Shown piece after piece: positions 5,701 through 22,636 of a stretch of DNA of 64,000 nucleotides. Under the pieces are notes generated by a model that was not told the DNA's origin, did not search any database, and worked only from the letters and a program-made list of their open reading frames with translations. The stretch's first letter is position 1, and every line of letters begins with the position of its first letter. The stretch comes from Diphasiastrum complanatum (lineage: Eukaryota; Streptophyta; Lycopodiopsida; Lycopodiales; Lycopodiaceae). Both the position numbers and the translations under genes were made by a program. Location: assembly GCA_029204225.1 (NCBI GenBank), contig CM055099.1:64105614-64169613 (forward strand), in the 5' to 3' direction.

Positions 5701-7320
5701 TTTTTGCTATGTCTAGTCCTCAGGATGGTATCAGGAAGTAGTAAACTTGGGTTATGGGGAGCCCCTTCCTCCCCATAACCTATTCTTTCAAACTTTGATT
5801 ATATGCATGAAAAAAGCTGTCATGTTGCATAGTTTTATTAATGGAACAGATCGTATCACCTGTAATGCTGCTAGACCGAACGACAAGGTTCTTTGTTTGG
5901 TTGACCTATTGGACACTGTACATTGGGTTAAAATTTACATGGACTACGGTAAGACCAAGACTGATCCCTTGGGTTTAATTGAAAACTTTGCTACTGAGTT
6001 GGTCGAGCTTGCTGAAAAATATTAAAGGGAAGAGAAATTTTATAATACTCATATCAGTTGTCTTGAGAAAGAAAACGACGTTCTTTCTGCTGATCACACT
6101 CCTGCCATTACTGATTCACCTCCGCCTGTACACCCTCTCATCTTTTAGACGATTTGGATGAGGATAGTGCCTCACAACTTGAAATTTTTTTCCAAGAAAT
6201 ATGTGATGTTGGTGATCTATCCACTTTTGAGTTCTACCAATCCAATAATTGCCAAGTCCTTTTTGTCCCTGCATGCACTATTGAGCTTAAGTCTGCCCGT
6301 ACTTCTTTTAAGCTTTGGAGCCTACCCACTGTCAATATTCTTGCTCCACTACCTATCGAACTTTGGATTATTCTTGCACATGTCACTGATAAAGAAGTAC
6401 AAACCTACAAACTAGTCGCCTTGAACAAAAACTCCATTCTTGAGACTCCCATTGTCTTTGATAATATCATACGTATGAACAAATTTGAGCCTTCTCGCTG
6501 TCCCTCTAAGCAAACCTGGGCACAAATTTGTGGACATTTTGACACCGGTTTCAATAGAATCAATCTCCACCAAGCTAGAATTTGAAACTGGAAAAGACCC
6601 TTCTTCAAATGTAGATGTGGCGACAAATGCAAAAATCAATCCTCCATTATTTGGTTTGACCATGCCATCTGGTATATTATGAATAACCTAAGAATTTTCT
6701 TTCCTGGGGCTTCTACGCATAACCAATTCAATGCATTTTTTCTTTGGCTTCACAAACCTACTAGGGAGGTTGTCAAAGCACACGTGACTTTTCTCTTTCT
6801 TCGCCAACACATGATAGATGCGTCCATTGAACTTGCTGCTAATCCTTCTGCCAAACTCCTTGCAAGTCTAGGCAATGCTGAAAACATTAAAGAAATCGAA
6901 GCTTTTTCACTTTGCAAGACAAATTCTTTCAAAACTTCAATAAAAAAACAAACACTTTTAACCTCAACAACCCAAGCTCTGTCATATCAAGTCAAGGTGG
7001 TGGTAAAAGAAGGAAATTTACAGGTTACAGAGGCAAAGAAGGGCAAGGAAGTGGTACAACGGAAGATTTGCCAATCAAGAAGCTGAATTTTTATAGGGAT
7101 TGATATGGGTGCAAGACAAAGAGGTTTTGCACAAGAGAGAAGTGATAAGGAATACGATGGATCGCCTGCAGCTCATTATGCATAATACCAAGGGAACTCT
7201 CTTTCTACATTTACTTTACCGCAATAGGATATTTGAGACCATTCATGTGAAGCAATTTAATGCTCGTATTTTATTACAGTTATTCGGCTTTATACATGAG
7301 TCATTCTACGATATTATTTT
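5701..7320 (+). pseudogene. RT-family copy A: N-terminal extension of a Penelope/TERT-like retroelement
   Basis: Homologous to 13931-15330 (copy D) and 10111-10560 (copy C). Conserved blocks run in order: a start region with C-M-K-K and T-C-N-A followed by D-K-x-L-C-L (5747-6025); a block with F-x-L-W-S-L-P and I-E-L-W (6154-6585); the Cys motif C-R-C-G-D-K-C at 6610-6630; then a helical block around F-F-P-G-A-S and F-L-W-L-H-K-P (6680-6900). Several frameshifts and stops separate these, for example after 6025, at 6147 and at 6582. Homology to the RT part stops at about 7320, where copy B begins on the other strand. The function of the extension is unknown; nucleic-acid binding by the Cys motif is only an inference. 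Confidence 0.75.
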
Positions 7321-8945
7321 ACCGTTCTCGATTGAGCTTTGTCTAAGAAAAGTCCAATTGTATGATTATTGATAAAGCAAATGTCATCAATATATCTAAA
7401 TGAATATTTGAAATTATTCATAAATGAAATTTGCCCTGATCTTGCAAGCCTTTTAATAAATTGCATTTCAAAAAATAAAAGGTACCAGCTACACCACATT
7501 GGTGAGTAGGAAAAACCCATAGGTATTTCACGAACTTGTCTCCAGGTATGACCTCCAAGTCTGACAATGCAATTGTCTATCAAATAAGAGTTCCATTCGC
7601 ATAAGGCCTCCTTGTCTATACTATTCCATTCATCTGCTACAACATTTTTGGAGGACCATTTATGTGCAGAAAGTACAAAAAGGACCAAGAGTGGATCCTA
7701 ATCTGATCCTCAAGAGGGATTGGATATTGGATTTACTTGATCTATCAATCTACATAAGATTAAGATCAATCTAGATCAATTCTAGACATAAAATCCAAAC
7801 AAGAACAATCATTTATTGAAGGTAAATGTACTTGATGGTTTCACACGTGTGAAACCCTGTTAGGGTACGGACTCCAACCTGAAAATCAAGTACACATTGA
7901 TAGAACCTCAAAACAATCAAAACAAATGTAGACAAATGGAGAGAATCACTCAAAATTGCTTCCAAAACCAAGATTGGTGTCTCACATTGATTATGGCCAA
8001 ATGTGGCTCTATATATACAATAAGTGGGAGCTCGTGGTACTGATCATCCCTATGATCCCACATGTGTGAAGGTGCTTTGTCATATGATGATTCATCATGC
8101 AAAACTGACACTTGGACAAAACCTTCTATTTTGAGCACTTTTGGTCCATTTTCCTTCTATATGGAGATCTACTTGGAAATCTTCTAGAAGTCAAAATTCG
8201 CCTACTTCAGCTTATTCCACACATGTGAGCTGTCCTCTACACATGTGATATGACACCTAACCAAAGGATGTGGCTCATGCAATCAATAGATTGATGCCAT
8301 GTGTCATATGTCTAGAAAACTAGTTTTTGGCCTTTTTAGCCACTAGAACTTAAATAAATAATATGTACAACCTATATGATTATGGTACATGACAAGTACA
8401 CTATTTTCACACATGGGAACAGGCTCCACACATGTGTGTTTATCTATATACAAGATTTTTGGCCTCTACCAAGCTTATTTTTGCATTTTTCACAATTTAA
8501 AATTATTGGAACCCAGTATACGTCTATACTTAAGTACTTTAATTTTGGCAGTCTTAAAGGCCAAACTGATCATTTTTGTCATAATAGTTTTTAGACCGTC
8601 AGTTCTGTCCAGAGGAATATTTTGTAACATTTAGAAATATCGGTAGCTTTCATTGTATATATATGTCTTGGTAAGTTGAGATAGAAATTGACAGATAAAT
8701 CACATTGCCATAATAAAGAAGTATCCCCATTCAGGATGCTCTTGTATGTGTTTGCCTTAAGGCCTGTATCTTTCATAATAAAAGGATACAAGATACCAAG
8801 AGCACCTGTCAGTTTGGCGAGTCTAGAAAAACAGCAATCATGTGCATTTGTGATCCATCTAAAAGTCTCTTTGTGTGCTTTGTATGTGCATAGCAAGTAA
8901 GGTAATTCCCTAGAATATATGAAGTCATTAGGTAGTTCAGAAAAT
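7314..8945 (-). pseudogene. RT-family copy B: fingers and palm, interrupted by an insertion
   Basis: Read on the minus strand, 8945-8540 carries the fingers region: an L-L-C-T-Y-K-A-H-K then F-R-W-I-T block, then motif A with its catalytic Asp (T-D-I-S-K-C-Y). After an 855-bp insertion (7677-8531) the palm resumes at 7676-7314 with motif B' (I-P-M-G-F-x-x-S-P) and motif C, F-R-Y-I-D-D, whose YIDD codons are at 7383-7394. One frameshift lies just after motif A. The copy is truncated at both ends: at 8945 against a gypsy gag fragment and at 7314 against copy A. It matters because it keeps the motif A Asp that copy D has lost. Confidence 0.8.
7677..8531. mobile_element. Insertion in RT copy B, LTR-like
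   Basis: An 855-bp block splits copy B and is absent from copy D. AAGTAC occurs on both sides (7671-7676 and 8532-8537) and could be a target duplication. The block has a TATA-like CTATATATAC near 8010 and the palindrome TTTCACACGTGTGAAA at 7839-7854, shared with the LTRs at 16632 and 21560, which suggests a solo LTR. The ends are not a clean TG...CA, so the class is uncertain. No coding sequence. Confidence 0.5.
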
Positions 8946-21005: not shown

Positions 21006-21652
21006 TGTGAAAAATACAGATCCTAAGTGGATCTAAACTCCAAGATCATTGGCTTGAATGCTTGCACTCCAAACTACATAAGCTAGGAATTGGCAACACA
21101 TTCTATGCTACCTAGAATGCAAAGAACTTGATCAAAAAGCATTTATCACAAATGGAAACTTCCATAAACATCAAGTGCGGCCCAAAATAGCATTATACAG
21201 TCCATAATACATCAGCCTACTACTTTTGGAAAGCACCTAAGATCATACACACAAAGCTTGAACTCAATCACTACACAATGCCAACAATGGAAGGAGAACC
21301 CAATAGAAAAATCTCTCATTAAGCAAATGAATACAATGGATCTGCTCCAACCTGTTTCTCCACGGCCTACCTGCTATATATAGCTGAGAGAGATGACTCT
21401 CTCTCCTCTCTCTAGACCCTCCTTACCTAAAATATGCCCTATATAGGTAAAATTGGCATATATGTCCAAAATACATGAAAATGGACTCATTTCGAAGGTC
21501 TTGAAGTTTGACACTTCTTCATACTGAAAAAATACACTTACTAAAAATATCTAGACCTGTTTCACACGTGTGAAAAGTCAGATCCTAAACTATGTGCCAT
21601 TTTTAGCAATTTTGGCCTAAAACTAGACAAGGAAATGTTGACAATTTTCACA
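21006..21652 (-). repeat. 5' LTR (647 bp)
   Basis: Pair of 16078-16724. Carries the same palindrome at 21560-21575. Transcription would run leftwards. Confidence 0.95.
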
Positions 21653-22636
21653 CAAAATCACTTCGATGTGGTCTACTAACATTACAAAATGTTATGAGAA
21701 TATCCCTTTTAATGGTCCTAATGGGCTAAAAATAGTAATATGAAAAATGATCAGGTATGCCTTTAAGTCTTGTGAAAACAAAAAGCTGGCCTATCAATGG
21801 AAACCGAGCATTAAGCAATTTGATTGGAAATGGGTAAACAATCAAACCGACAATTGGATTGTGATTGACGAAATACTTCTTTGCCAATGGAATGATATCC
21901 TGATTGACAATTGCGTAAGATTAGAAAACAGGACTTGGAAACAAGTTTGTGGTATTCCAATGGGTTTTGTCTGTTCCCCTACATGGTGCAACTGGTATCT
22001 ATCATTCTATGAATTACATTTCATGAAAAGACTCGCCAAACTTGGTAAGGTGGAATACCTACGTGCCTTTAAGCATACCTTCCGCTATATTGATGATATT
22101 TGTTTCATAAACAACACAGATGCTCTCTTATTTTTGGACAAAGAGCAAACTCATGTTGATGATAATGCCTTATGGATCTATTCCTTGGAGTACCTCACCA
22201 TAGAAAATGACGACGCTTTTGATAATGCGGTCAATTTTTTGATTATTACGACTACCTTTGATTCTTTATCGAGTAGGTTTCATATGAAAAAAATTGACAA
22301 GCGAAGGGAACTTCCGTTTTCATTTTTTCAATATATACACTTGACTGCCAATAGGCCGATTATGAACTCGTATAAAGTTATTGTCGTTCAAATTGTTGCT
22401 GCCATGTACTGTTGTAGCGAACAAGATACCTTTATGGATGAGGTCAAAAACGTCGTTCTTGCTTTGCAACATAATGGCTTCATGAAAGGAAGATTATATG
22501 AGATTATAAACAACCTTTTCCTACACAATTTGTTCCCAGGATTCAAGTTTACTTTACCAATAAATGCTAATTTTCTTTTGGTGGGCCATCTCAAAGGTGC
22601 TAACTGCCCCCTGAGAGACTTTGCTAGTTGTGGGTT
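21653..22636 (+). pseudogene. RT-family copy D, palm and thumb (right part)
   Basis: Continuation of 13931-16077 after the nested element. Motif A reads T-N-I-T-K-C-Y-E-N-I-P (about 21676-21708): the catalytic Asp present in copy B is Asn here. One in-frame TGA follows at about 21741-21743, then an open stretch from 21747. Motif B' is G-I-P-M-G-F-x-x-S-P at 21951-21983 and motif C is F-R-Y-I-D-D with YIDD at 22086-22097. About 170 thumb-like residues follow, to L-K-G-A-N-C-P-L-R, where the sequence runs into (CT)n. Motif spacing and the CY...IP form of motif A resemble Penelope-like and TERT reverse transcriptases rather than LINE, copia or gypsy RTs. No endonuclease domain is visible. Confidence 0.85.

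Follow-up and report, generated by a model that had tools for sequence, protein, structure and literature searches.

The DKG form of a motif lying before the reverse transcriptase (RT) is a feature of Penelope-like elements (PLEs), and Athena and the other PLEs that are deficient in an endonuclease (EN) carry extra open reading frames (ORFs). Naiad and Chlamys elements, reportedly described by Craig et al. in 2021, are said to possess a permuted GIY-YIG endonuclease at the N-terminus, and Chlamys inserts into (CA)n. A GIY-YIG endonuclease marks the EN-containing PLEs, namely Penelope/Poseidon, Neptune, Naiad and Chlamys. PMC9033089 records EN-minus PLEs from Selaginella and conifers, and PMC12477314 reports that Athena RNA ends in telomere-complementary repeats. 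Here we describe a family of elements in a stretch of 64,000 nucleotides from the lycopod Diphasiastrum complanatum (assembly GCA_029204225.1, contig CM055099.1, positions 64,105,614 to 64,169,613), hereafter the window. The family is probably a multi-copy, TERT-related Penelope-like retrotransposon without a recognised endonuclease that is associated with CT microsatellites, and whose layout and presumed annealing and priming mechanism are set out below. The element works like an EN-minus PLE. With Athena and the EN-deficient PLEs of rotifers, fungi, protists, Selaginella and conifers it shares the TERT-related RT and the absence of GIY-YIG.

Four related pieces, A to D, were found in the window by tblastn between the pieces, and all of them are decayed by stops and frameshifts. 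Copy A (5640..7320, plus strand; tblastn match 5717-7083, continuing to about 7320) retains a leader remnant, a frameshifted ORF1 (5717-7103) and the beginning of ORF2. It is joined tail to tail, at about 7317-7320, to copy B (7317..8974, minus strand), which holds the ORF2 RT core with the fingers, motif A, and motifs B' and C; as read by eye, a stretch of roughly 800 nt that has no match (about 7698-8500) splits this copy between motifs A and B'. Copy C (10103..11179, plus strand) comprises the end of ORF1 (10122-10313, with a TAA stop) and the N-terminal half of ORF2 with the DKA and CFMC motifs. The tblastn matches of copy D cover 13932-16079 and 21654-22559 on the plus strand: ORF1 with CRCGDKC (13932..15338), whose start, a YAG preceded by CTAAC, may be the 3' end of an intron; the initial part of ORF2 with DKA and the fingers (15335..16076); and, beyond a nested copia-type long terminal repeat (LTR) element that does not belong to the Penelope-like element (16077..21653), the second part of ORF2 with motif A, IPMGF, YIDD and the thumb (21654..22559). 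THK or AHK, RWIT, IPMGF, YIDD, and VDKA or IDKA followed by CFMC were confirmed in the translations; motif A reads TDISKCY in copy B and NITKCY in copy D, and CRCGDKC is present in copies A and D. The first-pass annotation, made from the letters alone, had proposed a multi-copy family with at least four copies bearing these motifs, and this proposal holds. The element reaches beyond the extent given there for copy D, 13.9-22.6 kb, with terminal repeats from 11194 to 23299. Third-position differences exceed those at first and second positions in all seven segments compared between the window copies, and dN/dS was 0.09, 0.17 and 0.28 in the three segments for which it could be computed; the coding signal is beyond chance.

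The source assembly (1.74 Gb, 5176 contigs) contains many decayed copies of this one retrotransposon family. ORF2 has at least 87 matches genome-wide (7146 first-look candidates, 79 scored), most of them with internal stops, and ORF1 at least 96 (6640 first-look candidates, 92 scored). A TERT host gene is ruled out by these numbers, since at least 87 mostly interrupted matches denote a repeat and not a conserved host gene. We examined 60 loci (L numbers below), namely the best 30 of the ORF2 search and the best 30 of the ORF1 search, some of which are near-identical duplicates. ORF1 lies upstream of ORF2 in 27 of the 30 ORF2 loci, and ORF2 follows ORF1 in 23 of the 30 ORF1 loci.

The RT encoded by ORF2 is supported as Penelope/TERT-like by a predicted structure, by the DKA block and by the direct terminal repeats. 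Pfam gave only a weak RVT_1 match to the ORF pieces of the window. A profile search returned 12 proteins. Nine are intact relatives (P0001-P0009; 673-790 residues) that match 98-100% of the query at 30-35% identity; the other three are two fragments and the distant P0012. The structural results rest on P0001, an intact relative that is 35% identical to window copy D and whose AlphaFold model has a mean predicted local distance difference test score (pLDDT) of 89. The first 14 Foldseek hits of this model are telomerases, and VIA rows 1-12 are also TERT; in the predicted fold the alignment to TERT runs from before the RT through the C-terminal part, at 10-13% identity (VIA rows 1-12), and no match to the model is listed for the region of human TERT before residue 322. 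The element differs from TERT not only in this low identity but also in being multi-copy and decayed. Against a viral fold library, RNA polymerases or polyproteins make up most of the first 50 rows (first E-value 1.5e-6), and no relatives of the element were found in viral and prokaryote contigs. An earlier structure model from nine rows (pLDDT 57) was not used; its first three Foldseek rows were TERT with E-values of 0.019-0.54. The DKA block precedes the RT in window copies C and D and in 12 of the 12 rows of alignment A2, and it is common to proteins with an N-terminal GIY-YIG. Predicted structure, motif layout and the weakness of the RVT_1 match rule out an RT of the LINE, DIRS, gypsy or copia kind, a placement that the first-pass annotation had named as refuting its proposal, and the assignment to Penelope/TERT made there is supported. 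Its remark that no GIY-YIG is visible is likewise correct for what was scanned: Pfam detects none in the ORF pieces of the window, in P0001-P0009 (whose predicted starts may be incomplete) or in ORF1 frames, a scan that left the terminal repeats aside, and a pattern search in six frames of 4500-24500 gave one meaningless match. Canonical Penelope and Poseidon elements resemble this family in the TERT-like RT and the pLTR-type direct repeats, and possibly in introns; they differ in that P0001-P0009 have no C-terminal GIY-YIG according to Pfam.

A region of about 450 residues that the first-pass annotation had taken for an N-terminal extension of the RT protein turns out to be a separate ORF1. 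The upstream frame of copies A and C closes with NFYRD/S and a stop, and the RT frame lies at -1; third-position excess reaches as far as this stop. Across the 60 genome loci the stop follows the ORF1 end motif in 46 of 49 matches, and ORF2 is in the -1 frame relative to ORF1 in 12 of the 16 copies displayed, decay having shifted the others. ORF1 is about 460 aa long, and some of its frames are open (470 aa in L051, 456 aa in L059); it has the conserved motifs IWN.KR..FKCRCG.KC and WFDH. Three ORF1 frames gave nothing in Pfam up to an E-value of 10, elsewhere only AWS appeared at E 0.25-0.58, and the PDB gave no match; in the protein database none of 7960 candidates was a homolog at E 0.01 (proteins of about 255-810 aa covered). 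No ATG was seen near ORF2, and by eye the ORF1/ORF2 overlap contains no canonical slippery heptamer for a -1 frameshift.

The genome copies reveal the layout of the element as terminal repeat, short CT tract, leader, ORF1, ORF2, 3' untranslated region (UTR) with a hairpin, long (CT)n, and terminal repeat. The direct terminal repeats are about 2.6 kb long and contain a TATA-like box. In copy D, by comparison with the genome copies, the 5' repeat (pLTR-like) occupies 11194..13830 on the plus strand, with the TATA-like sequence CTATAAAGAGG near 11432, an inner CT tract at 11484-11587, and a segment (12280-12815) that has no match in the other copies compared; the truncated 3' repeat (22749..23299, plus strand) is 90% identical to 11195-11721. 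That 11194-11721 and 22752-23299 form an unrelated repeat was considered and ruled out, as the genome copies show both to be D's own terminal repeats. The first 300 nt of the repeat (query 22752-23055) occur downstream of ORF2 in 18 of the 30 ORF2 loci, with the TATA-like box seen in 15 of these, and in 27 of the 30 ORF1 loci some part of 11194-13830, more than 100 nt long, precedes ORF1; L011 carries the repeat on both sides within one locus. A detached fragment of the terminal repeat on the minus strand (50334..51245, comprising 50334-50902 and 51055-51245) adjoins a CT array at 51247-51350.

The 3' UTR is followed by (CT)n, with a run of 27-175 nt, in 24 of the 25 loci that have a UTR match; in copy D the UTR (22560..22636, plus strand) passes directly into a (CT)n tract at 22637..22748. 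Among 96 exact genome copies of a 21-mer at the junction, 75 continue directly into (CT)7, and a 28-mer from the 3' UTR has 66 exact genome copies. Beyond the CT run the terminal repeat begins in 20 of 24 loci by pattern and in a 21st, L009, by BLAST; L020 has a shortened repeat there, and L017 and L028 continue into unlike DNA, although an assembly fault is possible in L028, because its near-twin L029 has the repeat at this place. The 3' repeat itself ends in GTTAC(TC)n with unlike DNA beyond it in L018/L070 and in L020, and the 5' repeat of L069 starts directly after a CT run of 93 nt. A second, short CT tract marks the junction of repeat and leader (13819..13829 in copy D, plus strand) and precedes the leader hairpin in 26 of 31 leaders; its length is 6-13 nt in 21 loci where a pattern was used to measure it and, by eye, more than 20 nt in L063. 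Branch-point-like CTRRC and a YAG at the start of ORF1, a possible intron 3' end, occur in 24 of the 31 leaders. The leader of copy D (13832..13879, plus strand) can form a small hairpin and a possible H-type pseudoknot. Neither the covariation score nor the paired percentage is reached by any of 500 shuffles, but only three of 15 pairs are changed on both sides, which 262 of 500 shuffles attain; the pseudoknot helix has zero pairs with double changes, and a control slid by +1 equals the 15 double-change cells. With modest pairing support and controls that partly failed, the leader structure is offered as a suggestion only. The 3' UTR hairpin has up to 16 bp (five loci folded, a sixth missed by the pattern) and is partly lost in copy D.

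These features suggest how the element might move. Transcription would start in the 5' terminal repeat, ORF1 might serve as a nucleic-acid-binding partner, and ORF2 might bind the element RNA, with a TRBD-like region of the protein and the 3' hairpin as the contacts. Where a CT/GA microsatellite is broken or opened, its GA strand could pair with the CU tract of this RNA, and the 3' end of that strand would prime cDNA synthesis. Such break-primed synthesis would account for insertion without a recognised nuclease and may parallel EN-less Athena elements, which are reported to use telomere-complementary repeats at chromosome ends. A further likeness is that the RNA of Athena carries repeats complementary to its target at the 3' end (PMC12477314); the window copies differ in having a CT microsatellite instead of telomeric repeats and in giving no hammerhead match. 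A large family that combines clear CT junctions and a separate, conserved ORF1 with a TERT-like RT bearing a TRBD-like part would make EN-minus PLE integration away from telomeres testable, and it raises the question whether annealing to a microsatellite can take the place of a nick.

Several observations weigh against this mechanism. An endonuclease could sit in ORF1 or in an unscanned part of the element, or could act in trans. The window has pairs of TTTAGGG, with up to two mismatches allowed, at three places only (535, 24523 and 46363), none of them beside the copies, and a telomere association, which we had considered, is not seen. Rfam finds no hammerhead at the gathering score in the whole window, and a search of 4500-24500 at E 10 gave six chance-like matches and no ribozyme. 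Among the 60 loci, which were not searched systematically for this, we noticed none that retains both ORFs intact. Of the junction 21-mers, 21 of 96 do not lead into (CT)7, and the 5' repeat of L071 starts internally with no CT, so that one of the two 5' ends examined is CT-flanked. CT arrays away from the element at 485, 608, 3885 and 63697 imply, in turn, that its tract may expand like any microsatellite.

The alternative that survives best, which we rate at somewhat less than an even chance, is that this is an ordinary member of the plant EN-minus PLEs already described, with only the host being new. Such elements are recorded in Selaginella, pine and spruce in PMC9033089, and in Selaginella also in PMC12477314, and the reading fits the absence of GIY-YIG. 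PMC12477314 describes the Selaginella elements as telomere-associated, whereas the window copies are without telomere repeats. This bears on the suggestion in the first-pass annotation of a new or poorly described clade. In a tree of 439 columns and 27 rows, from which the short or partial sequences P0010, P0011, P0016, P0018, P0030, P0031 and P0032 were excluded, window copies B and D and P0001-P0009 fall on one side at 100/100, apart from 16 other relatives, six of them with an N-terminal GIY-YIG. The group thus stands apart, but Selaginella and conifers are already known to have EN-minus PLEs (PMC9033089), and the tree was built without TERT and the named PLE sequences (Athena, Coprina, Neptune, Penelope, Chlamys, plant EN-minus); a new or poorly described clade is supported only relative to the sequences compared.

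A derivation from Naiad/Chlamys-type elements, in which the N-terminal GIY-YIG was lost or replaced by ORF1, appears unlikely. A further search, started from P0012 together with four of P0001-P0009, returned 21 proteins (P0012-P0032), presumably Naiad-like. In six of the 21, P0021-P0025 and, just under the cut-off, P0027, Pfam detects a GIY-YIG close to the N-terminus (within residues 52-157), which is the permuted arrangement ascribed to Naiad and Chlamys, and by eye several of the others start inside this region. They share with the window family the RT core, a CxC-GHV-KG block and DKA, and the window RT matches a profile of ten of them at 99.8% probability and E 1e-29. What separates the two is a branch of 1.51 + 0.66 (about 2.2) changes per site (P0026 and P0027 are themselves on long branches), the lack of a detected N-terminal GIY-YIG, and the presence of a distinct, CRCGDKC-bearing ORF1 of some 460 aa. 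The hhalign probability of ORF1 against the N-terminal part of P0012-P0032 is only 0.2% and 0.3%; this result, the pattern search and Pfam speak against ORF1 being a diverged GIY-YIG, but weakly so, because the ORF1 profile is shallow. In the parts scanned, membership in Naiad/Chlamys fails on the endonuclease.

That (CT)n is a passive neighbour, in that the repeat and the 3' UTR both happen to end in CT tracts able to expand while the element itself lacks a CT preference, also seems doubtful. In its favour are the CT arrays inside the terminal repeat (11484 and 23061), those elsewhere in the window, and the start of L071 without CT. It fits poorly with L017 and, assembly permitting, L028, where the 3' UTR leads through (CT)n straight to unlike DNA, and with the CT run before the 5' end of L069 and after the repeat in L020 and L070. 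The boldest proposal, that the RT itself writes the CT repeats, with the leader CU tract by the possible pseudoknot as a telomerase-like template copied repeatedly into the long 3' (CT)n, is very improbable; if true, it would make the element a mobile relative of telomerase that produces microsatellites and lands in its own repeats. An RT that extends or writes the repeat would bear on the relation between telomerase and mobile elements and on the origin of CT microsatellites.

The element nested in copy D has LTRs at 16077-16725 and 21005-21653, 649 nt each with one difference seen, and a gag-type ORF of 1036 aa (Retrotran_gag_2) on the minus strand; it is possibly non-autonomous, because no pol ORF is among the listed ORFs. 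Further copia pieces are RVT_2 in 38843-40399 (plus strand) and 34875-35489 (minus strand), and gag in 58997-59578 (minus strand). An open frame at 56990-57547 (MGNGSSSRRHG..., rich in Pro and Tyr) gave nothing in Pfam; it resembles the N-terminal region of LUL-type ubiquitin ligases in plants. The window also contains a direct repeat (1193-1570 and 2319-2741, 92-96% identity, with about 1.1 kb between), an array at 49243-50012 with about 23 bp spacing, and three closely spaced CA/AC arrays at 41851-42660.

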